Shown here in pieces: positions 7,085-53,999 of a stretch of DNA of 64,000 bases (the stretch's first letter is position 1; every line of letters starts with the position of its first letter). A program made the translations under genes and the position numbers. The notes below the pieces were generated by a model, which made no database searches, was not told where the DNA came from, and saw only the letters and a program-made list of their open reading frames with translations. This stretch comes from Streptomyces sp. NBC_01571 (GTDB lineage: Bacteria > Actinomycetota > Actinomycetes > Streptomycetales > Streptomycetaceae), in assembly GCF_026339875.1 (NCBI RefSeq), contig NZ_JAPEPZ010000001.1:3906001-3970000 (forward strand). Reading direction: 5' to 3'.

Positions 7085-8281
7085 GTGACGAACTCACTCC
7101 GACCGAACGGCCGGCAGCGAGCGCCGCTCCCCCCGGCACAACAGCCGGCCCGGGGAGTGCCGGGTCCGCGCTCACCACGGGATCAGTCCGCGCAGCACGC
7201 CACGACGGTACCGACCGAGGCCGCCGCCCCGGCCGCGAAACCCGCGGCGCAGCGCGACGCCTTCTTCGACAACGCCAAGTACCTGGCGATCGTGCTCGTG
7301 GCCATGGGCCACGCCTGGGAGCCCCTGAAGGGCCAGAGTCGCATCCTGGAGGCGGCGTACACGGTCGTGTACTCCTTCCACATGCCGGCCTTCATCATCA
7401 TCTCCGGCTACTTCTCGCGCAGTTTCGACATGCGCCCCGACCGTCTGAAGCGGCTGGTGACCGGCGTCGCCGTCCCCTACGTCGTCTTCGAGGTGTCGTA
7501 CGTCCTCTTCAAGCGCTGGGCCGCCGGCGACACGTCGCTGCCGATCAGCCTGCTCGACCCGTGGTACCTCACCTGGTTCCTGTGCGCGCTGTTCATCTGG
7601 CGGCTGACCACCCCCCTGTGGAAGATGGTGCGTTGGCCGCTCCCGGTCGCGCTCGTCGTCGCCATGCTCGCGTCCGTCTCACCGGACATCGGTGACGACC
7701 TCGACCTGCAGCGCGTGCTCCAGTTCCTCCCGTTCTTCGTGCTGGGCCTGATCATGAAGCCCGAGCACTTCCAGCTGGCACGCCGCCGTGAGGTGCGCAT
7801 CCTGTCGGTGCCGGTGTTCGCCGCCGCGCTCGCGGTGGGCTGGTGGGCGGTGCCGCGGATGAACACCGCCTGGTTCTACCACCGCGACAGCGCGCAGGAA
7901 CTCGGCGTCCCGTGGTGGGTGGGCCCGGTGATGGTGTTCGCCCTGTTCGGCTGTTCGCTGCTGCTCACCGCGTGCTTCTTCTCCTGGGTTCCGCGCCGCC
8001 GGACGTGGTTCACTGCGCTCGGCGCGGGCACCCTGTACGGCTATCTGCTGCACGGCTTCCTGGTCAAGGCCGGCACCTACTGGGGCTGGTTCGACCACGC
8101 GTGGATGCACAGGCCGCTCGGCGAGATCTTCGTGACCCTGGTCGCGGCCACGGCCGTCACCCTGCTGTGCACGGCACCCGTCCGGCGGGTCTTCCGCTTC
8201 GCGATGGAGCCCAGCATGGACTGGGCCTTCAAGCGGGACGCCACGGAACTGGCCCGCGAACGGGCCAGGGCCAAGGCCTAA
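7085..8281 (+). CDS. Acyltransferase family 3 integral membrane protein
   Basis: Protein of 398 residues with about ten membrane helices. It belongs to the acyltransferase-3 group that moves acetyl or similar groups onto surface polysaccharides and lipids; the opening motif FFDNAKYLAIVLVAMGHAWEPL resembles the catalytic-His region of fucose O-acetylase-like members. The first 55 residues are a hydrophilic Pro/Ala-rich cytoplasmic extension, and the end (ATELARERARAKA) is charged. GTG at 7085 has GGGAGG 6 nt upstream. It is monocistronic after a long low-GC gap. The substrate cannot be told from sequence. Confidence 0.85.
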   Translation: MTNSLRPNGRQRAPLPPAQQPARGVPGPRSPRDQSAQHATTVPTEAAAPAAKPAAQRDAFFDNAKYLAIVLVAMGHAWEPLKGQSRILEAAYTVVYSFHMPAFIIISGYFSRSFDMRPDRLKRLVTGVAVPYVVFEVSYVLFKRWAAGDTSLPISLLDPWYLTWFLCALFIWRLTTPLWKMVRWPLPVALVVAMLASVSPDIGDDLDLQRVLQFLPFFVLGLIMKPEHFQLARRREVRILSVPVFAAALAVGWWAVPRMNTAWFYHRDSAQELGVPWWVGPVMVFALFGCSLLLTACFFSWVPRRRTWFTALGAGTLYGYLLHGFLVKAGTYWGWFDHAWMHRPLGEIFVTLVAATAVTLLCTAPVRRVFRFAMEPSMDWAFKRDATELARERARAKA

Positions 8282-44348: not shown

Positions 44349-46922
44349 GTGCCTGGCACAAACCTGACCCGCGAAGAGGCGCAGCAGCGCGCGAAGCTGC
44401 TCACCGTTGACTCGTACGAGATCGATCTCGACCTCTCGGGCGCGCAGGAGGGCGGCACCTACCGGTCCGTGACCACAGTGCGCTTCGATGTCTCCGAGAG
44501 CGGCGCGGAGTCCTTCATCGACCTGGTGGCCCCGGCCGTCCACGAGGTGGTCCTGAACGGGGACGCCCTCGCCCCCGCCGACGTCTTCCAGGACTCGCGG
44601 ATCGCGCTGCCGGGCCTGCTGGAGGGACGCAACGTCCTGCGGGTCGTCGCCGACTGCGCGTACACCAACACCGGCGAGGGCCTGCACCGGTTCGTCGACC
44701 CGGTCGACCAGCAGGCCTACCTGTACACCCAGTTCGAGGTCCCGGACGCCCGGCGCGTCTTCGCGTCCTTCGAGCAGCCCGACCTGAAGGCCACCTTCCG
44801 GTTCACCGTGAAGGCGCCCCCCGGCTGGACCGTCATTTCCAACTCGCCGTCGCCCGAGCCCAAGGACGACACCTGGGCCTTCGAGCCGACGCCGCGGATC
44901 TCCACGTACATCACCGCGCTGATCGCCGGCCCGTACCACTCCGTGCACAGTGTGTACGAGAAGGACGGGCAGAGCGTGCCGCTCGGCATCTACTGTCGTC
45001 CCTCGCTCGCCGAGTTCCTCGACTCGGACGCGATCTTCGAGGTCACCCGGCAGGGCTTCGAGTGGTTCCAGGAGAAGTTCGACTACGCGTACCCGTTCGA
45101 GAAGTACGACCAGCTCTTCGTGCCGGAGTTCAACGCGGGCGCGATGGAGAACGCGGGCGCGGTGACGATCCGGGACCAGTACGTGTTCCGGTCGAAGGTC
45201 ACCGACGCCGCGTACGAGGTCCGCGCCGAGACGATCCTGCACGAGCTCGCCCACATGTGGTTCGGCGACCTCGTGACCATGGAGTGGTGGAACGACCTGT
45301 GGCTGAACGAGTCGTTCGCCACCTACACCTCCATCGCCTGCCAGGCCTACGCCGCGGGCAGCCGCTGGCCGCACTCCTGGACGACCTTCGCCAACTCCAT
45401 GAAGACGTGGGCGTACCGGCAGGACCAACTGCCGTCCACCCACCCGATCATGGCGGAGATCCGCGACCTGGACGACGTGCTCGTCAACTTCGACGGGATC
45501 ACGTACGCGAAGGGCGCGAGCGTGCTGAAGCAGCTCGTCGCGTACGTCGGCATGGACGAGTTCTTCCGCGGCGTGCAGGCGTACTTCAAGCGGCACGCGT
45601 ACGGCAACACGCGTCTGTCCGACCTGCTGGGCGCGCTGGAGGAGACCTCCGGGCGCGACCTGAAGAACTGGTCGGAGAAGTGGCTGCGGACCGCCGGCAT
45701 CAACGTCCTGCGCCCGGAGGTCGAGACGGACGCGAACGGGGTCGTCACCTCCTTCGCGATCCGCCAGGAGGCCCCGGCGCTCCCGGCGGGCGCCAAGGGC
45801 GAGCCGACGCTCCGCCCCCACCGCATCGCGATCGGCCTCTACGACCTCGACGACGCGAGCGGCAAGCTGGTGCGCGACGAGCGGATCGAGCTCGACGTCG
45901 ACGGTGAGCTGACCGCCGTGCCCGAGCTGACCGGCAAGCGCCGTCCGGCCGTCTTCCTGCTCAACGACGACGACCTGTCGTACGCCAAGGTCCGTCTCGA
46001 CGAGGACTCGCTGGCCTTCGTGACGGAGCACCTCGGCGACTTCGAGTCATCGCTTCCGCGCGCGCTGTGCTGGGCCTCCGCCTGGGACATGACCCGCGAC
46101 GGGGAGCTCGCCACCCGCGACTACCTGTCCCTGGTGCTGTCCGGCATCGGCAAGGAGTCCGACATCGGTGTCGTGCAGTCGCTGCAGCGGCAGCTCAAGC
46201 TGGCGATCGAGCTGTACGCCGACCCCGCCACCCGCGAGGCGCTGCTGACCCGCTGGACCGAGGCGACCCTCGCGCACCTGCGCGCGGCCGAGGCCGGCGG
46301 CGACCACCAGCTCGCCTGGGCGCGCGCCTTCGCGGCGACCGCCCGGACTCCGGAGCAGCTGGACCTCCTGGAGGGCCTGCTGGAGGACCGGGAGACCATC
46401 GAGGGTCTCGCCGTCGACACCGAGCTGCGCTGGGCGTTCGTACAGCGGCTCGCGGCGGTCGGCCGCTACGACGAGGCGGAGATCGCGGCCGAGTACGAGC
46501 GCGACCGGACGGCGGCCGGTGAGCGGCACGCGGCCACCGCGCGGGCCGGCCGTCCCACCGCGGAGGCGAAGGAGGAGGCCTGGGTCTCGGTCATCGAGTC
46601 CGACAAGCTCCCGAACGCCGTGCAGGAGGCGGTGATCGGCGGCTTCGTGCAGACCGACCAGCGTGAGCTGCTCGCTCCGTACGCGGACCGGTTCTTCGCC
46701 GTGGTGAAGGACATCTGGGACGCCCGTTCGCACGAGATCGCCCAGCAGATCGCGATCGGCCTGTACCCGTCGATCCAGGTCTCCGAGGAGACCCTCGCCA
46801 AGACGGACGCGTGGCTGGCCTCCGCCGAGTCCAACGCGGCCCTGCGGCGTCTGATCTCGGAGTCCCGCGCCGGGATCGAGCGCGCGCTGAAGGCACAGGC
46901 GGCGGACGCGGCCGCTTCGTAA
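44349..46922 (+). CDS. pepN: Aminopeptidase N, M1 family (copy 2)
   Basis: Zinc aminopeptidase of 857 residues, paralogous to the copy at 27605. GAMEN is in FNAGAMENAGAV; the zinc site is HELAHMWFGDLVTMEWWNDLWLNESFATY. This copy has the usual LNESF, so it is probably the housekeeping enzyme. The two copies are colinear and begin alike (VPGTNLTREEAQQRAKLLTVDSYE here). GTG 44349 has GAGGAG 9 nt upstream. The transcript should end at the hairpin at 47005. Confidence 0.95.
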   Translation: MPGTNLTREEAQQRAKLLTVDSYEIDLDLSGAQEGGTYRSVTTVRFDVSESGAESFIDLVAPAVHEVVLNGDALAPADVFQDSRIALPGLLEGRNVLRVVADCAYTNTGEGLHRFVDPVDQQAYLYTQFEVPDARRVFASFEQPDLKATFRFTVKAPPGWTVISNSPSPEPKDDTWAFEPTPRISTYITALIAGPYHSVHSVYEKDGQSVPLGIYCRPSLAEFLDSDAIFEVTRQGFEWFQEKFDYAYPFEKYDQLFVPEFNAGAMENAGAVTIRDQYVFRSKVTDAAYEVRAETILHELAHMWFGDLVTMEWWNDLWLNESFATYTSIACQAYAAGSRWPHSWTTFANSMKTWAYRQDQLPSTHPIMAEIRDLDDVLVNFDGITYAKGASVLKQLVAYVGMDEFFRGVQAYFKRHAYGNTRLSDLLGALEETSGRDLKNWSEKWLRTAGINVLRPEVETDANGVVTSFAIRQEAPALPAGAKGEPTLRPHRIAIGLYDLDDASGKLVRDERIELDVDGELTAVPELTGKRRPAVFLLNDDDLSYAKVRLDEDSLAFVTEHLGDFESSLPRALCWASAWDMTRDGELATRDYLSLVLSGIGKESDIGVVQSLQRQLKLAIELYADPATREALLTRWTEATLAHLRAAEAGGDHQLAWARAFAATARTPEQLDLLEGLLEDRETIEGLAVDTELRWAFVQRLAAVGRYDEAEIAAEYERDRTAAGERHAATARAGRPTAEAKEEAWVSVIESDKLPNAVQEAVIGGFVQTDQRELLAPYADRFFAVVKDIWDARSHEIAQQIAIGLYPSIQVSEETLAKTDAWLASAESNAALRRLISESRAGIERALKAQAADAAAS

Positions 46923-46951: not shown

Positions 46952-47000
46952 CGTACGGCTTGCGTCTCACGTCGTACGGCTTGCGTCTCACGTCGTACGG
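46952..47000. repeat. 21-bp tandem repeat (2.3 copies) after pepN copy 2
   Basis: Two exact 21-bp units (46952-46972 and 46973-46993) and the first 7 bp of a third lie between the pepN stop codon and its terminator. Each unit begins CGTACGG. No coding role is likely. Confidence 0.75.
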
Positions 47001-47004
47001 ACAG

Positions 47005-47035
47005 GGGGCGCCCGGCATGTGCCGGGCGCCCCTTT
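47005..47035 (+). terminator. Intrinsic terminator of pepN copy 2
   Basis: A 13-bp perfect inverted repeat, GGGGCGCCCGGCA and its complement, is followed by TTT. It lies 83 bp after the pepN stop codon. Confidence 0.85.
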
Positions 47036-47163: not shown

Positions 47164-48543
47164 TCACATCAGGGCGCGGGCGAGCACGAGCATGGTGCGG
47201 GCCTGGAGTGCGGTCTGGTCGGCGACGGGCACCCAGCGGGCGTCGAACGTGCGCTCCAGCTCGCGGGCCCACCCGGCCACGAGCGCGTCCAGCGCCGGTG
47301 CGCCGCCCAGGGCCCGGCTCATCATGGCCGCCGCGCGCAGTGGGATGCGGCGGGCCGCGATGCCGAGCGAGACGGAGTTGCCGACGGTGGTGGCCAGTTG
47401 GGCGGCGCTCCAGGTGTCCACGACGCCGGAGCCGATGTCCATGAGTTCGCGGGCCGCCGTGAAGTGGGCCAGCTCGTCGGGCGTCACGGGCGGAAGCGGG
47501 TCCAACTCACCGACCAACGACTCCAGTTGCTTGACCCGGCCGAGCAGGAGCTCGCTGACGTCGGCGAGTTCACGGCGCGGATCGGCCACCGGCCGTGGAT
47601 CGCCGACGCCCGCCACGCTCCAGAAGGGCGCCTCGACCACGGCCGAGACGGTGCCGTGCCGCATCGCATGCAGCCAGGTCGACCGTGAGACGAAGCCCGA
47701 GGGGTCCCGTTCCTCCGCCGGGCTGCCGTCGGGCAGGACGAGCACGCCCGGTCCCTCGACGAGCCACCCCATGCCGTCGAAGGGCCGGTGTTCCAGGGGA
47801 ACGCCCAGGTCCGCCGCGATCCGGCGGTAGGCGGCCGGCGCTCCGGGCACCGCACGGGTCAGTTGCAGGAAGGTTCCTCCTACTTCGACACCGTGCAGCG
47901 AGAACTGCACGACGGGGCGCAGTTCGTCGATGAGCCGCAGCAGGGCCTCGGACTCCGGCATCGGCGCGCGCGGATCCTCCGTGACGGGCGGGAACTCGGG
48001 CTGGGCGGCGAAGGCGGGGCGGTAGAAGCCCCGGTAGTAGCTCCCCATGAGGGGCGGTGCGGGGGCGGGCGGCACGGCGCGCGACGACGGTCGGGCACCG
48101 GACGGCGCCCCGGCCGTCCGCCCGTACGCGGTGTCCGAAGCGTTCACGGCGTCCAGGGTGCCCATGGCACCCACGCCGTTCGAGGCGGCGGAGGCGTTCG
48201 CGGACATCCAGCCCTCGGCGAGACGCGCACCGTCGGGATCGAGGCAGAGCAGGAAGTGCCAGGTGCAGTCCAGCCCTCCCTCGCCCCTGCCCAGGACGCT
48301 CGGATCACGGGCGAGCCGGCGGGCGAGCCGCAGTGAAGTGGCCCCGCCCACCGGCTCGTTGGCGTGCGCGCCGGCGACCGTGAGCACCTGGCGCGGGCCG
48401 TGCCCGGCCGACAGCAGCCACAGCGGCCGGCCGGCACGCGAGGTCCCGATGTCGCGCAGACGCAGGTCGCCGGGGAGCGCGGCCACCGTCGCACGAGCGC
48501 CTCGCAGCAGCTCGTCCAGGGTGGGATACGGGGTTCCCCGCAT
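47164..48543 (-). CDS. M14 family zinc carboxypeptidase, part of a peptide-modification locus
   Basis: Protein of 459 residues without a signal peptide, so probably cytoplasmic. Zinc ligands are His60 and Glu63 (GAHANEP) and His217 (FSLHGVE); the catalytic Glu is probably Glu304 (VVEAPFW). The segment 130-165 is a low-complexity insertion. The family removes C-terminal residues from peptides. ATG 48543 has GGAG 7 nt upstream and starts 12 bp after the stop codon of a 24-residue peptide gene on the same strand. The peptide pair and this enzyme are therefore likely one operon, and the peptides are its obvious candidate substrates. Confidence 0.85.
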   Translation of the reverse strand: MRGTPYPTLDELLRGARATVAALPGDLRLRDIGTSRAGRPLWLLSAGHGPRQVLTVAGAHANEPVGGATSLRLARRLARDPSVLGRGEGGLDCTWHFLLCLDPDGARLAEGWMSANASAASNGVGAMGTLDAVNASDTAYGRTAGAPSGARPSSRAVPPAPAPPLMGSYYRGFYRPAFAAQPEFPPVTEDPRAPMPESEALLRLIDELRPVVQFSLHGVEVGGTFLQLTRAVPGAPAAYRRIAADLGVPLEHRPFDGMGWLVEGPGVLVLPDGSPAEERDPSGFVSRSTWLHAMRHGTVSAVVEAPFWSVAGVGDPRPVADPRRELADVSELLLGRVKQLESLVGELDPLPPVTPDELAHFTAARELMDIGSGVVDTWSAAQLATTVGNSVSLGIAARRIPLRAAAMMSRALGGAPALDALVAGWARELERTFDARWVPVADQTALQARTMLVLARALM

Positions 48544-48555
48544 GCCGGGCTCCGG

Positions 48556-48630
48556 TCAGGTGCCGTTCGCGTTGCTGGCCCCGGTGGTCTCCTTCTTGTC
48601 CAACGGACGGATCACGATCCTGGCAGCCAT
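48556..48630 (-). CDS. Short precursor-like peptide 1 (24 residues)
   Basis: ATG 48630 to TGA 48558-48556, with the strong site GAAGGAG 9 nt upstream. The peptide is MAAR, then IVIRPLDKKETTG, then the tail ASNANGT. The 13-residue centre is identical in peptide 2, and 36 bp of DNA (48584-48619) are identical to 48748-48783. A conserved N-terminal part and a variable C-terminal tail is the usual form of a leader-core precursor. It has no cysteine, so lanthionine or disulfide classes are excluded. The tail ends Asn-Ala-Asn-Gly-Thr. It is immediately upstream of the M14 peptidase gene. Confidence 0.8.
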   Translation of the reverse strand: MAARIVIRPLDKKETTGASNANGT

Positions 48631-48716
48631 GTGGTCCCCTCTCCTTCACGACCGACGGTGCGCGCAACAGCGGAGCCCGGACCGCGCCGGGCCGTCGAGC
48701 GGGTACGGCGGGCTGG

Positions 48717-48794
48717 TCAGCCGCCGTTGCCGCCACTGCTGTCGCCCGTGGTCTCCTTCTTGTCCAACGGACGGATCACGATCTTTGTGGGCAC
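48717..48794 (-). CDS. Short precursor-like peptide 2 (25 residues)
   Basis: GTG 48794 to TGA 48719-48717, with GGGGGAGGAG 7 nt upstream. The peptide is MPTK, then the same IVIRPLDKKETTG as peptide 1, then the tail DSSGGNGG. It ends in a double glycine and, like peptide 1, has Asn-Gly near the C-terminus. The start faces the ThiF-like gene 123 bp away. Peptides 1 and 2 arose by duplication with a 164-bp period. The exact conservation of the centre, with silent and non-silent changes in the tail, argues for a coding function despite the small size. Confidence 0.8.
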   Translation of the reverse strand: MPTKIVIRPLDKKETTGDSSGGNGG

Positions 48795-48917
48795 GCCAAC
48801 TCCTCCCCCTCGCAAGGATGTTGCGCATCACGGCGCGATCGTCGACCGCGTCTTGTCAAGGCTCGACTCGGGGCACCAGAGTGTCAAGGCATGTACCTGT
48901 AACGGGAAGGGGTCCTG
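48795..48917. promoter_or_regulatory. Divergent promoter region of the peptide-modification locus
   Basis: 123 bp between peptide 2 (leftward) and the ThiF-like gene (rightward). TGTCAAGGC occurs twice in the same orientation, at 48854-48862 and 48882-48890 (28-bp period). TTGTCA at 48853-48858 could be a -35. One regulator could set both transcripts from these repeats. Confidence 0.5.
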
Positions 48918-50261
48918 GTGACGGTCACGGTCGAGACGCTCCGCCGACCCCGGATCAAACCCGAGCACCGGGCCTACCGCACGATCGACGGCAACGTCCG
49001 TATCGGCAGCGTCATCCACGGCATCGGCGCGGAGATCGCGGACCCTGAGGGCTGGGTCTGGACCCTGGTCGAGGCGATGGACGGGACGCGGGAGCCGGCC
49101 GAGGTGGTGGACGCGGTGCTGCGGGCGCATCCCGGACTCCGCGGTCTCACGGACGAGGACACCCGTCAGGCGATGGCGGATCTGCTCGACGCCGGGTTCG
49201 TGGAGGACGCGGGAGCACCCGTGCCGGTGTCCGCGCGGGAGCGCGTCCGCTACAGCCGGGGCGTGCCGCTGCTGCGCTGGATGGACCTCGGTCCCCGGAC
49301 GACCCCGTGGGACGCCCAGCTCCGGCTGCTCGGCGCCCGGGTGCTGCTGATCGGCGTCGGCGGCACGGGAGGCCATGCCGCGCAGAGCCTGGTCGCCTCC
49401 GGCGTGGGCCATCTGCACTGCGTGGACCCGGACGTGGTCGAACTGTCGAACCTCAACCGCCAGCCCCTGTTCCGCGAGCCCGACCTCGGCCGGCCCAAGG
49501 TGGAGGCCGCGCTCGGCACCCTGCGGGCCCTGAACTCGGACGTGACGGTGACCGGGGAACGGCGGGAGGTGCGGGGGCCGGAGGATCTGGCGGAGCTGGT
49601 GCGGTCCGGGGCGCCCGAGGCCCCGCGTCCGCCCGGGGTCCCGGATCCGCCCGAGGCCCCGCGCGCGTCCGCGGTCCCGGATCCGCCCGAGGCCCCGCGC
49701 GCGTCCGGTCCGTACGACCTGCTCGTTCTCGCCGCCGACCGTCCGGACGACATCCGGCGCTGGGCGAACCGTGTCTGCCTGGCCGCGGGACTGCCGTGGG
49801 TCGACGCCGGATACCGGGGCCCTCTGGTGACGGCCGGGGTGCACGTGCCCGGCCGGGGAGCCTGCTGGGAGTGTCTGCGGGCCGCGGAGGTCGCCCGCCG
49901 CGATCTGCGGCTGGGGCCGGGCCAGGACGAGGAGGCCGCCTCCCCGCATCTGCCGTGGAACCCGGCGAGCGCGGTCACCGCAGGTCTCTCCGGCGGTCTG
50001 CTCGCCCACGCGGCCCTGGCCCTGCTCACCGGCGTGCCCGCGCTCGACCCGGGTTTCCGCTTCGGGATGAACCTGATGCTGCCCGGGGATCCCGTGCTGG
50101 AGAGATCCCCGCGACGGCCCGACTGCCCGGCCTGCGGCGACCGGCCCACCGGAGAACGCGCCGGGTCACGGGTCGAGGGCAGGACCGAGGGAACGTCCGG
50201 AGAACGAACCGGGGACCGGACCGGAGGGCAGTCCGGACAACAGGCCGGAGGCCAGGGATGA
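48918..50261 (+). CDS. ThiF/E1-like adenylating enzyme with TOMM-type leader-binding N-terminus
   Basis: Protein of 447 residues. Residues 1-105 resemble the leader-binding part of Ocin-ThiF proteins of thiazole/oxazole peptide clusters (LRRPRIKPEHRAYRTIDGNVRIG...). The E1-like domain follows: GVGGTGG at about 145-151 (ATP), VDPDVVELSNLNRQ, GRPKVE, the catalytic-Asp region AADRPDDIRRWANRVC, and four zinc cysteines (Cys316, Cys319, Cys403, Cys406). All key residues seem present, so it should adenylate a C-terminal carboxylate. Residues 233-260 are Pro/Glu/Ala repeats and the last 40 residues are Gly/Thr/Arg-rich. GTG 48918 has AAGGGG; its stop overlaps the next start (ATGA). Confidence 0.85.
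   Translation: MTVTVETLRRPRIKPEHRAYRTIDGNVRIGSVIHGIGAEIADPEGWVWTLVEAMDGTREPAEVVDAVLRAHPGLRGLTDEDTRQAMADLLDAGFVEDAGAPVPVSARERVRYSRGVPLLRWMDLGPRTTPWDAQLRLLGARVLLIGVGGTGGHAAQSLVASGVGHLHCVDPDVVELSNLNRQPLFREPDLGRPKVEAALGTLRALNSDVTVTGERREVRGPEDLAELVRSGAPEAPRPPGVPDPPEAPRASAVPDPPEAPRASGPYDLLVLAADRPDDIRRWANRVCLAAGLPWVDAGYRGPLVTAGVHVPGRGACWECLRAAEVARRDLRLGPGQDEEAASPHLPWNPASAVTAGLSGGLLAHAALALLTGVPALDPGFRFGMNLMLPGDPVLERSPRRPDCPACGDRPTGERAGSRVEGRTEGTSGERTGDRTGGQSGQQAGGQG
49640..49705 (+). repeat. 36-bp in-frame duplication in the ThiF-like gene
   Basis: The stretch encoding VPDPPEAPRAS is present twice in succession (about residues 240-264), making a Pro/Glu-rich loop inserted in the E1-like domain between the ATP-binding half and the catalytic Asp. 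It is in frame and should form an exposed loop. Confidence 0.65.
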
Positions 50262-51499
50262 CCCGGTCCGCCGGGGAGCGTCACGGGTGCGCCGGCCCCG
50301 CCGGCCGGTCCCCGGCGGCCCCGGGCCCCACCCCCCACGTACGGCTCCACCGGCTCGACTCGCGCCCCGACGGGGACGAATGGATCGTCGGGCGGCTCGC
50401 GACCGGCCGGTTCGTCGCGCTGCCCGAGGTCGGCAAGCAGGCGCTGGACCTGCTCGGGCAGGGGCTGGGCGCAGCCGAGGTGGGGCGGCGGCTGCGGGAG
50501 ACGACCGGCGACGACATCGACGTAGCCGATTTCGTCGAGGCGCTGGTGGACCTCGGGTTCGTGGCCGAGGTGGACGGGCGGGCCACGGAGTCGCCGCCTC
50601 CGCCGAAGCCGACGTTCGCCCGGATCCGCCCCCGGCACGTGCGCTGGGTGCTGAGCCCCGTCGTCCCCGTCCTGGTCGGACTGCTGATCGCGGCCGCCCT
50701 TCTCAGCCGGCCACCCGTTCCGCTCAGCTACCACACCCTCCTGTGGAGCCCGCACGGCAGCGCGGTGATCGCGCTCGGCGCGGGCGTGGGCTGGACCCTC
50801 CTGCTGCTCCACGAGTGCGCGCACCTGGTGGCCGCCCGCGCGACCGGCGTCCCCGGCCGGATGCGGCTGGGCACGCGGCTCCAGTTCCTGGTCATGCAGA
50901 CGGACATCAGCGGCATCGAGATCGCCCCGCGCCGCCACCGTCTGACCGCCTATCTGGCCGGCATCGCGACCAACCTGTCCGTCGCCTCGCTCGCCGCCCT
51001 CGCGGCGGGCACCACGGACGGCGCGGGCCGCCGGGTCCTCGCCGCCGTCGCGCTGCTCGCCCTGCTCCCGCTGCCCTTCCAGCTCATGGTCTTCATGCGT
51101 ACGGACCTGTACTTCGTGCTCCAGGACCTGACGCGCTGCCGCGATCTGTACGGGGACGGGGTGGCGTTCTCCCAGTACGCCGCCCGGCGGGTACTGCGGC
51201 ACACGTCCGCCCCGGACCCCAGCCTCCAACTGCCCGTCCACGAACGGCGAGCCGTGCGCGTGTACAGCGCCGTGCTCGTCGTGGGCACCGCGCTGTGTCT
51301 CGCGTTCCTCGCGGCCGTCACGCTGCCCGCGGACGTCACCCTCTTCGCCCGCGCGGTGGCCCGGCTGGGCGCCGGCCACTCCGCCGCGCAGCGCCTCGAC
51401 TCCGCGGCGGTCGTGGTCGCGCTCGGCGGGGTCCACGTGCTGTGGGCGCGCACCTGGTGGCGGGGGCGCCGGCTCAGTGCGGGACCATCCCGCCCGTGA
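50258..51499 (+). CDS. PqqD domain / M50 membrane metalloprotease fusion
   Basis: Protein of 413 residues. Residues about 25-110 are a PqqD-like, RiPP-recognition-type winged helix (WIVGRLATGRFVALPEVGKQALDLLGQG...). Then come about seven membrane helices with the M50 zinc motif HECAH at 185-189. Site-2-type proteases cut within or near the membrane; with a peptide-binding domain this one may release or export a processed peptide. ATG 50258 overlaps the stop of the ThiF-like gene by 4 bp, so both are made together. The 3' end overlaps the convergent dehydrogenase gene by 26 bp. Confidence 0.85.
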   Translation: MTRSAGERHGCAGPAGRSPAAPGPTPHVRLHRLDSRPDGDEWIVGRLATGRFVALPEVGKQALDLLGQGLGAAEVGRRLRETTGDDIDVADFVEALVDLGFVAEVDGRATESPPPPKPTFARIRPRHVRWVLSPVVPVLVGLLIAAALLSRPPVPLSYHTLLWSPHGSAVIALGAGVGWTLLLLHECAHLVAARATGVPGRMRLGTRLQFLVMQTDISGIEIAPRRHRLTAYLAGIATNLSVASLAALAAGTTDGAGRRVLAAVALLALLPLPFQLMVFMRTDLYFVLQDLTRCRDLYGDGVAFSQYAARRVLRHTSAPDPSLQLPVHERRAVRVYSAVLVVGTALCLAFLAAVTLPADVTLFARAVARLGAGHSAAQRLDSAAVVVALGGVHVLWARTWWRGRRLSAGPSRP

Positions 51500-52250: not shown

Positions 52251-52341
52251 GGTGAAGTCTCCTGAAGGTGTACGGCCGTACGAGTGCGTCGTACGGGTCC
52301 GTCGAACGTGTCGGTCATACAGACGTACGCGCCCTCCCGCA

Positions 52342-52439
52342 GTCGTCGGTCACCACTCGTCGGTCACCACTCGTCGGTCACCACTCGCCGGTCACCAGTC
52401 GTCGGTCACCAGTCGTCGGCCGGCGCTCATCGGCCGGCG
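52342..52439. repeat. 14-bp minisatellite, seven units
   Basis: Seven head-to-tail 14-bp units with consensus STCGTCGGTCACCA run from 52342 to 52439; the first five are nearly exact and the last two drift to GGCCGGCG endings. A decayed eighth unit reaches the stop codon of the sigma factor gene. The period is not a multiple of three and no gene is here, so it is noncoding. It fills the space between the dehydrogenase start and the sigma stop. Confidence 0.85.
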
Positions 52440-52454
52440 CTCACGGCGCGTCGC

Positions 52455-53999
52455 TCACCGGTCGGCCGGGAGCCGCAGAGGCAGTCCGAACGCCGGGAAG
52501 AGGTGCGGCTCGAAGGAGGTGATCTCCACGATGCGGTCGCCCTCGATGCGCAGGACGTCGAGGACCTGCGCGCGGTACACGGTGGTACCGGGGCGGCGTA
52601 CGTAACCCCCCGCCGCGAGCTGCCCGTTGGCCCGCGCGGGAAGATGGCGCCAGTGGCCGAGGAACAGCGGGGACGCGGGGTCGAGGCTGATCCCGAGGAA
52701 CTCGGTGAGCGCGGCGCGGCCGACGAACCAGTACGGGTTCGGCGGCATGGTGAGCCTGATGTCCTCGCTGAGCAGGTCGGTGAACGCGGCGAGGTCGAGG
52801 CTCTCGGCGGCTGCCATGTAACGCCCGAGGACCTCGCGCTCGCGGGCGTCGGCCTCGGCGGTCCATTCGGTGCGGCGGCGGGGCAGACGGTCGCGCAGGG
52901 TGGGCCGGGCGCGTTGCAGGGCGCTGTTGACCGAGGCCACCGTCATCTCCAGCGCCTCGCCGGTCTCGGCCGCGGAGAGTCCGAGCACGTCACGCAGGAC
53001 CAGGACGGCACGCTGGCGGGGCGGCAGATGCTGGATGGCGGCGAGGAAGACGAGCTCCATGGTCTCCCGGGAGACGGCGACGGCGTCCGGCTGGTCGTCG
53101 GCGGAGGGCAGGTCCCCGTCGGGGTACGGCTGGAGCCAGGTGATGCGGGCCGGGGGTTCGGCGCTGCCGTGGTTCATTCCGGGCAGCGGCTCGTAACGCC
53201 GGGGACGGCGGGCGGTGCGCCGCTGGAAGTCCAGACAGGCGTTCGTGGCGATCCGGTACAGCCAGGTCCGTACGGCCGCCCGCCCCGCGAAGCCGTCCCG
53301 GGCCCGCCAGGCACACAGGAACGTCTCCTGCACGAGGTCCTCGGCGTCGTCGTACGAGCCCGCCATCCGGTAGCAGTGCACGCGCAGCTCGCGCCGGTAC
53401 GGCTCGACGAGCGCGGCGAAGTCGCTCTCCCCGAGGGCGGCGTGCGGACCGGAGTCCTGCGTCACGGAGGTCCGCGTGGCGGAAGGCCGTGTGACGGAAG
53501 GCCGTGTGACGGAAGGCCGTGTGACGGAATCGCGCGTTGCGGAATCATCCGTACCGGAATCGCGCGTGACGGAATCGCGCGTACGGGGGCCCTGGTCCGG
53601 GGAGGTCCGCGGGGTGGTGGGGTGCGGGGCGTCATGGTCCGCTGTGGTGGGTTCGTCGGCGGGGGCGGGTGAGCCCGGCCCTTTCGTCACGTCGGCCCGC
53701 GTGACGGAACCGACCTTCGCGGTGTCCCGGGCGACCCGGGCGATACGGCGCAGCCGTCCGACCGAGGCGGCCAGGTCGGTCACGCCGGAGTAGAAGACGG
53801 ACGGCGGCTGCGGAACCAGCGCCTCGACCTGCCGCCCGACCTCCTCGATCAGCCCGCGCACGGTGTCGACGGGCGCCGCCTGCCGCTCCCGGTACGCCTT
53901 CTGCCGACAGGCGGCCGAGCAGTACACCGAGCTCCGTCCCGCCCGCCCGGCCCGTCCGGCCAGGGGCTTGGCACAACTGCGGCACACGGCATCGGTCAC
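52455..53999 (-). CDS. ECF sigma factor with SnoaL-like C-terminus fused to an N-terminal zinc finger
   Basis: Protein of 514 residues. Residues 6-31 form a C4 zinc finger (CRSC ... YCSAAC, followed by RQKAYRERQ) with a helix after it. A repetitive linker (about 130-185) has TRDSVTRD and SVTRPSVTRP units. Sigma region 2 (HCYRMAGSYDDAEDLVQETFLCAWRARDGF) and region 4 (HLPPRQRAVLVLRDVLGLSAAETGEALEMTVASVNSALQRA) follow, then a SnoaL-like domain (about 385-514), the layout of ECF41-type or SigJ-like factors in which the tail modulates activity. GTG 53999 has GGAGG 5 nt upstream. The zinc-finger fusion is unusual. No anti-sigma gene is adjacent. Confidence 0.85.
   Translation of the reverse strand: MTDAVCRSCAKPLAGRAGRAGRSSVYCSAACRQKAYRERQAAPVDTVRGLIEEVGRQVEALVPQPPSVFYSGVTDLAASVGRLRRIARVARDTAKVGSVTRADVTKGPGSPAPADEPTTADHDAPHPTTPRTSPDQGPRTRDSVTRDSGTDDSATRDSVTRPSVTRPSVTRPSATRTSVTQDSGPHAALGESDFAALVEPYRRELRVHCYRMAGSYDDAEDLVQETFLCAWRARDGFAGRAAVRTWLYRIATNACLDFQRRTARRPRRYEPLPGMNHGSAEPPARITWLQPYPDGDLPSADDQPDAVAVSRETMELVFLAAIQHLPPRQRAVLVLRDVLGLSAAETGEALEMTVASVNSALQRARPTLRDRLPRRRTEWTAEADAREREVLGRYMAAAESLDLAAFTDLLSEDIRLTMPPNPYWFVGRAALTEFLGISLDPASPLFLGHWRHLPARANGQLAAGGYVRRPGTTVYRAQVLDVLRIEGDRIVEITSFEPHLFPAFGLPLRLPADR
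53467..53610. repeat. 15-bp in-frame repeats encoding the sigma-factor linker
   Basis: On the minus strand several tandem 15-bp units encode Ser-Val-Thr-Arg-Pro-like pentapeptides. Three near-exact copies of GTGACGGAAGGCCGT-type sequence lie at about 53494-53535, followed by diverged copies. Since 15 bp is in frame, length changes do not break the protein. Confidence 0.75.

Follow-up and report, generated by a model that had tools for sequence, protein, structure and literature searches.

Gene content of the locus

The 64-kb stretch of Streptomyces sp. NBC_01571 DNA that was analysed (hereafter the window) carries, between positions 47164 and 51499, a compact gene group that appears to be a peptide-modification system built around a ThiF-like (E1-like) enzyme. 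A first-pass annotation had described five genes here in divergent transcripts, two of them encoding peptides of 24–25 residues, and open reading frame (ORF) calls on the window verify all five, at or beside the places it gave them, in two divergent units:

48717..48794, minus strand: peptide 1, putative precursor, 25 residues, GTG start, VPTKIVIRPLDKKETTGDSSGGNGG; Shine-Dalgarno-like GGAGGAG upstream
48556..48630, minus strand: peptide 2, putative precursor, 24 residues, MAARIVIRPLDKKETTGASNANGT; Shine-Dalgarno-like AAGGAGAGG upstream
47164..48543, minus strand: M14-family metallopeptidase, 459 aa; Pfam Peptidase_M14 E 2.7e-9
48795..48917, no strand: intergenic stretch between the divergent units, 123 nt
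48918..50261, plus strand: adenylyltransferase (E1-like) of ThiF type with a RiPP recognition element (RRE; RiPP, ribosomally synthesised and post-translationally modified peptide), predicted modifying enzyme; Pfam ThiF E 5.4e-38
50258..51499, plus strand: M50 (site-2-type) membrane metalloprotease, 413 aa; Pfam M50 E 4.6e-4 (below the curated cut-off), HExxH

The leftward unit runs from peptide 1 across an 86-nt gap to peptide 2 and, after a 12-nt gap, to the M14 gene; in the rightward unit the M50 start overlaps the ThiF stop (ATGA), and both promoters presumably sit in the 123-nt intergenic stretch. The two small ORFs are real, having Shine-Dalgarno-like sites and a shared motif that recurs beyond chance (below), and neither peptide matches a family in Pfam or NCBIfam. 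In this genome the ThiF protein query matches once and the peptide query twice, in each case at this locus.

A peptide family beside ThiF genes

A scan of a genome collection returned 482 stretches with 430 ThiF relatives at a loose threshold, and the best 80 loci, all from Actinomycetota by their titles, were kept. A relaxed peptide expression, partly tuned after inspection by eye, finds a peptide in 78 of these 80 loci, and one fixed motif finds it in 73. The first-pass annotation had said that its proposed peptide-modification system would fall if homologous ThiF-M50 pairs lacked such peptides, and their near-constant presence supports the proposal; one miss, L077, is on a contig that begins 15 nt before ThiF, and the other is real (see below). 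When the window, 13 other loci and a relic locus are included the count is 93 of 95, the fair denominator being the 80 loci, as several of the 13 lie on the same contigs (e.g. L031 and L090). Inspection by eye gave the peptides of L108, L139 and the plasmid locus L142.

Short ORFs are frequent in high-GC DNA of this kind, and the peptides might have been nothing but chance ORFs. That reading is refuted by the distribution of the fixed motif, which matches 86 times within 2 kb of ThiF (403 kb) and three times in the remaining 736 kb, has no match in 5.7 Mb of trinucleotide-shuffled sequence, and picks out only peptides 1 and 2 in the window. The three distant matches are themselves further family members: all come from Microbispora, where an additional peptide accompanies a second DUF6879 gene.

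Among 121 sampled Streptomyces genomes (ThiF query at E 1e-15, peptide 2 protein query at E 0.1) the ThiF query matches 23, of which 11 are close, namely that of the window and ten others with 58–86% local identity to it. The peptide query matches 12 genomes, exactly these eleven and G027, and so is specific to ThiF-bearing genomes plus one relic. All eleven close loci carry the M14 gene (in G050 only its end, at a contig end) and a peptide with the motif I-x-I-R-[PR]-L-[DE]-[KR]-K-E-T-T (an additional copy in G014 has D-K-Q-E), and seven carry M50. The G027 locus (L140, 9292–9699) is, judged by its sequence, decayed: in its peptide the invariant Leu is replaced by Pro, M14 is a stub of ~110 residues, and ThiF and M50 are absent within 20 kb. 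The more distant ThiF genes of G120, G079 and G088 (35–45% identity) have M50 and a recognisable peptide without M14; among the other nine ThiF matches, six lie in loci of 10–20 kb (L044–L049) that lack a motif match, and the remaining three, with short flanks only, give no peptide match. The family is thus common: it is present in 11 of the 121 sampled Streptomyces genomes, and the 80 loci examined are the best of the 430 loose ThiF relatives.

Two of these distant loci, L048 and L049, hold ThiF-M50 pairs (~29% identity) beside BTAD-NB-ARC-TPR regulators and are possibly a sister family; an 18-residue look-alike peptide in L048 (MEIKVRKVEDVKATGLQV, at 7824–7880) fails the fixed motif and was left out of the counts. 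Loci L045, L046 and L047 hold another ThiF family (28–29% identity) with conserved proteins of ~600 and ~420 residues.

The ThiF-M50-peptide set is also present on actinobacterial plasmids (L141–L144), where the best place in each has a peptide in four of four cases, three by the expression and the fourth by eye (MSKLTKTTAKTPAAAPARIGFRRLERVETTNSPCANAS). The three plasmid records that come with a gene table (L141, L142 and L144; the tables are incomplete) list no gene at the peptide sites, so gene callers probably miss the peptide genes.

In all, 110 peptides of 20–47 residues were collected, of which 98 are distinct in DNA and 94 were aligned, leaving aside the relic and three tentative Amycolatopsis peptides (MIEFIEV.RETT type) that were spotted by eye and then added to the relaxed expression. 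The Leu and the first Thr of the E-T-T are present in 94 of 94, the Arg and the Glu of E-T-T in 93 and the second Thr in 90, and the first acidic position is D in 86, E in 6, N in one and G in one; these fractions are somewhat inflated, as the collecting expression demands some motif residues. Both motif positions lack Lys in six distinct peptides. Past the second Thr is a tail of 6–11 residues (8 or 9 in 87 of the 94) that is rich in G, S and N, and that sometimes ends in or contains Asn (SNAN, SSN). Over the 98 distinct peptides the last residue is S in 31, A in 21, T in 17, G in 12, N in 10, E in 3, R in 2 and D in 2, and the penultimate residue is Gly in 76; Cys occurs in four, and one tail, in L043, has a Trp. 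Across 31 distinct 25-residue peptides the ratio of nonsynonymous to synonymous change (pN/pS, raw proportions over all pairs) is 0.14 in the core, 0.75 in the tail and 0.77 in the first four residues, and over all 94 cores it is 0.31. By these sequence measures the peptide is under selection and is made of a conserved recognition part and a freer tail, like RiPP precursors, whose variable part is usually the one that yields the product.

The arrangement in the window, with both peptides upstream of M14 and in its direction, would also suit regulatory leader peptides (attenuators), or free bioactive peptides, with ThiF acting elsewhere. We regard this as improbable, however, since position and strand of the peptide vary with the clade (it lies upstream, divergently, or downstream of M50) and there are up to three copies, conservation is at the amino acid level with synonymous change, and in the 121 genomes no peptide match occurs without a close ThiF except in the relic.

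The ThiF-like enzyme and the predicted pathway

The N-terminal domain of the window ThiF matches the pantocin A enzyme PaaA (profile positions 9–240, E 2.7e-43), its best profile match among solved structures, and the ThiF model aligns structurally with MccB, the microcin C7 enzyme, from residue 9 to about 408. The leader-recognition-like domain that the first-pass annotation gave this protein is upheld by both comparisons; Pfam PaaA-like_N matches at E 0.035, with 14 bits against a cut-off of 27, and so does not reach its curated cut-off. The protein thus joins a peptide-recognition domain at its N-terminus to an E1-like domain, the arrangement that marks ThiF-dependent RiPP enzymes. Residues G146-x-G148-G149-x-G151, D172, R181, K194 and D274, which from general knowledge of E1 enzymes we take to be ATP-site residues, are invariant in 41 aligned ThiF sequences, as are Cys 316, 319, 403 and 406. 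The window ThiF contains an insert that is lengthened by an in-frame tandem repeat (PEAPR.S.VPDP) at 49610–49710; the insert has low confidence in the model and is shorter in relatives.

Both proteases recur without being obligatory, M14 in 56 and M50 in 53 of the 80 loci, with neither in six. M14 residues H60, E63, H217 and E304, presumably the zinc ligands and catalytic Glu (from general knowledge of the family), are invariant in seven aligned sequences, and the M50 HExxH (H184-E185-H188) and D282 are kept in nine (numbering from codon 50261). The earlier description of the latter as a PqqD-M50 protease stands for its protease part, through the HExxH and the sub-cut-off Pfam M50 match, and less well for the N-terminal PqqD-like domain, whose profile match is weak (E 0.21).

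We consider it likely that these genes specify a pathway of RiPP type and represent a new ThiF-dependent subfamily, with the peptide of 24–25 residues as the ribosomal precursor. We infer the following steps, in this order, for the translated peptide. The N-terminal RRE of ThiF, as its fold suggests, would bind the conserved I-x-I-R-x-L-D stretch in the form of a beta strand, and the E1 domain would then adenylate one of the peptide's carboxylates at the expense of ATP. The C-terminal carboxylate is favoured because it is the only one common to every peptide and because MccB and IndF, the indolylamide enzyme, activate that group (PMC12150305). The activated carboxylate would be captured within the peptide, most likely by the first Thr of E-T-T, giving as product a lactone over the variable 8–9-residue tail, or alternatively by a Lys to give a lactam. 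M50, with its weak PqqD-like domain, and M14, where present, would trim the leader or C-terminal residues. The first Thr is the nucleophile that best fits the conservation. Lys as an obligate nucleophile was rejected on the six distinct peptides without Lys at either motif position, and D or E as an obligate acceptor was rejected as neither is invariant (L108, L139, L115).

No second tailoring enzyme recurs among the neighbour families annotated, which cover part of the neighbours, and for this reason ThiF fits as the sole conserved catalyst, as the first-pass annotation supposed. Its statement that YcaO is missing is confirmed for the locus proteins and ten scanned window neighbours, and the LAP/TOMM cyclodehydratase partner model TIGR03882 gives 14.2 bits on the locus against a cut-off of 36.9. 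With its unmistakable substrate motif, and as one modifying enzyme and a synthesisable peptide of ~25 residues seem to suffice, such a pathway makes E1-like action on small peptides directly testable.

Several observations weigh against a RiPP pathway with ring closure at the tail. The missing peptide of L113 is a genuine miss, with ThiF and M14 present; two of the 110 peptides (one copy each in L033 and L061) lack a good Shine-Dalgarno core at the chosen start; the Amycolatopsis peptide of L129, outside the 94, has Pro in place of the first Thr of E-T-T; the variable C-terminal residue and tail length are unusual for a fixed ring; and the neighbour families annotated (part of the neighbours) included no recognisable gene dedicated to export or immunity. 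The Glu of E-T-T (93 of 94) is nearly as constant as the first Thr (94 of 94), L115 being maybe one odd case, which would also suit chemistry of the pantocin type.

This last is the main rival, one we hold to be possible though clearly less probable, and it is the same type of pathway with another bond. PaaA activates a Glu side chain, and ThiF might likewise adenylate the conserved Glu (or Asp) on its side chain, and a backbone NH, Lys or Thr nearby would attack it to form an imide, an isopeptide or an ester within D-K-K-E-T-T. The near-constant Glu, the first acidic position (D or E in 92 of the 94 aligned peptides) and the rank of PaaA as best profile match argue for it; the substrate motif E-T-T, unlike the pantocin precursor, and the sub-cut-off PaaA-like_N match set the two systems apart.

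Far less likely is a microcin C-like Trojan-horse translation inhibitor, made by ThiF joining AMP to the C-terminal residue. The MccB fold match and the Asn-containing tails agree with this, and MccB had been the model of the first-pass annotation; the analogy holds for the fold and fails for the substrate. MccA is a heptapeptide ending in Asn, whereas the precursors here have 20–47 residues, Asn is last in just 10 of the 98 distinct peptides, and neither window peptide ends so. The M14 and M50 proteases stand in place of recognised immunity and export genes, and no exporter, acetyltransferase or immunity gene was recognised as recurring among the annotated neighbour families.

The frequent penultimate Gly brings ubiquitin to mind: a protease would trim the last residue of a -G-X tail, and ThiF would activate the exposed Gly and attach the peptide to another molecule. 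Tails of this form are found in 59 of 62 peptides of loci with M14 and in 12 of 29 of loci without it (Fisher p 3e-8), or, counted as distinct tails, in 14 of 16 and 11 of 23 (p 0.017). The association loses its support when relatedness is taken into account, however, and we treat it as confounded by descent because the ThiF tree (quick method) gives few independent pairs, one on supported branches and five on all; M14 as the setter of the tail was rejected on this ground. No E2 or acceptor protein was seen either, and we think such a mechanism unlikely. A related and similarly doubtful idea is that the E1-type enzyme joins the peptide, trimmed at -Gly-X, to itself or to a cellular molecule as a conserved actinobacterial signal or tag, and not as an antibiotic. 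In the ten scanned window neighbours there is no E2, ubiquitin-like or deubiquitinase partner, and PADLOC matched the generic ThiF E1 domain. A defence system is not favoured as a candidate, as the PADLOC matches are generic E1-E2 ones to ThiF alone, with none to M14 or M50.

Known systems and flanking genes

Characterised ThiF-like enzymes make four kinds of bond in modified peptides, with a fifth putative (PMC12150305), and further chemistries are expected (PMC12150305, PMC12250964). GrcB (thiolactone), EnfB (putative cyclic enterofaecin) and IndF (indolylamide) close rings through an adenylated carboxylate, in the case of GrcB one of the carboxylates of a Glu (PMC12150305). The present system has a ThiF-like enzyme like theirs, and ring closure here is a proposal; by description it is set apart by its peptides, with Trp in the one L043 tail and Cys in four of 98, and the ind system has an M16 protease where M14 and M50 occur here. 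With daptides the locus has in common an HExxH membrane protease of a RiPP cluster, but the M50 match to the daptide intramembrane protease NF041824 is far below cut-off (17.5 bits, E 0.0018, against 300), and the locus proteins matched none of the remaining daptide models.

The 2025 review of ThiF-dependent RiPPs covers the microcin C, pantocin A, GRC and enterofaecin types, and in its available part no mention of Streptomyces, actinobacteria, M14 or M50 was found (PMC12250964); nor was mention of M14, M50 or the peptide motif found in that of the IndF paper (PMC12150305). Core-motif strings such as LDKKETT and IRPLDK, and the combination of ThiF, a site-2 protease and a RiPP, occur in no paper of the literature searched, which mostly left subscription papers outside. 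From its sequences the family looks like an undescribed ThiF-RiPP subfamily with predicted chemistry, which supplementary Figure S1 of PMC12150305 may already show. Apart from the two groups described below, the recurrent neighbours that were annotated are of ordinary kinds, namely semialdehyde dehydrogenase, YchF GTPase, septum-formation protein, sigma factor, short-chain dehydrogenase/reductase (SDR), DHDPS-like protein, aldo-keto reductase and subtilase, and, in nine loci, an EamA-type transporter that lies several kb off within a housekeeping neighbourhood common to them. Tools of the antiSMASH type may report loci of this sort under a generic RRE-containing label.

In 12 loci M50, ThiF or the peptide is followed by a DUF6879 gene (L130–L132, L128, L134, L135, L138, L139, L110, L114, L119 and L136), in none of which M14 was found; three of the four Microbispora loci have two DUF6879 genes with the second peptide near the second one, and DUF6879 is named in no paper of the literature searched. 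STAND/NB-ARC-TPR or AAA-TPR relatives lie in the ThiF flanks (up to 7 kb) of 13 of the 80 loci (L115, L129, L133, L137, L122, L123, L128, L134, L079, L085, L087, L092 and L096), with hosts that include Amycolatopsis (on both sides of ThiF), Glycomyces, Verrucosispora, Actinoallomurus and five Streptomyces, and none is among the ten scanned window neighbours. They are a lead only, and a possible hint of a sensed signal; regulator-like matches in L088, L124 and L125 are weaker, and the start of c39_L130, tried as a possible regulator, resembles aconitase by eye.

In the window itself the gene directly upstream (44349–46922) is, by eye, an aminopeptidase, and directly downstream is an SDR gene followed by a sigma factor gene. 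The ten neighbours scanned comprise a CGNR-type regulator (~10 kb off), a subtilase, a semialdehyde dehydrogenase, a DUF1203 protein, the SDR, the sigma factor (with SnoaL), a FAD monooxygenase, MalQ and two proteins that gave no match. We note that a short repeat, CGTACGGCTTGCGTCTCACGT, lies at 46960–47010 between the aminopeptidase gene and M14 (by eye), and that a second repeat-rich stretch lies near 52284–52560.
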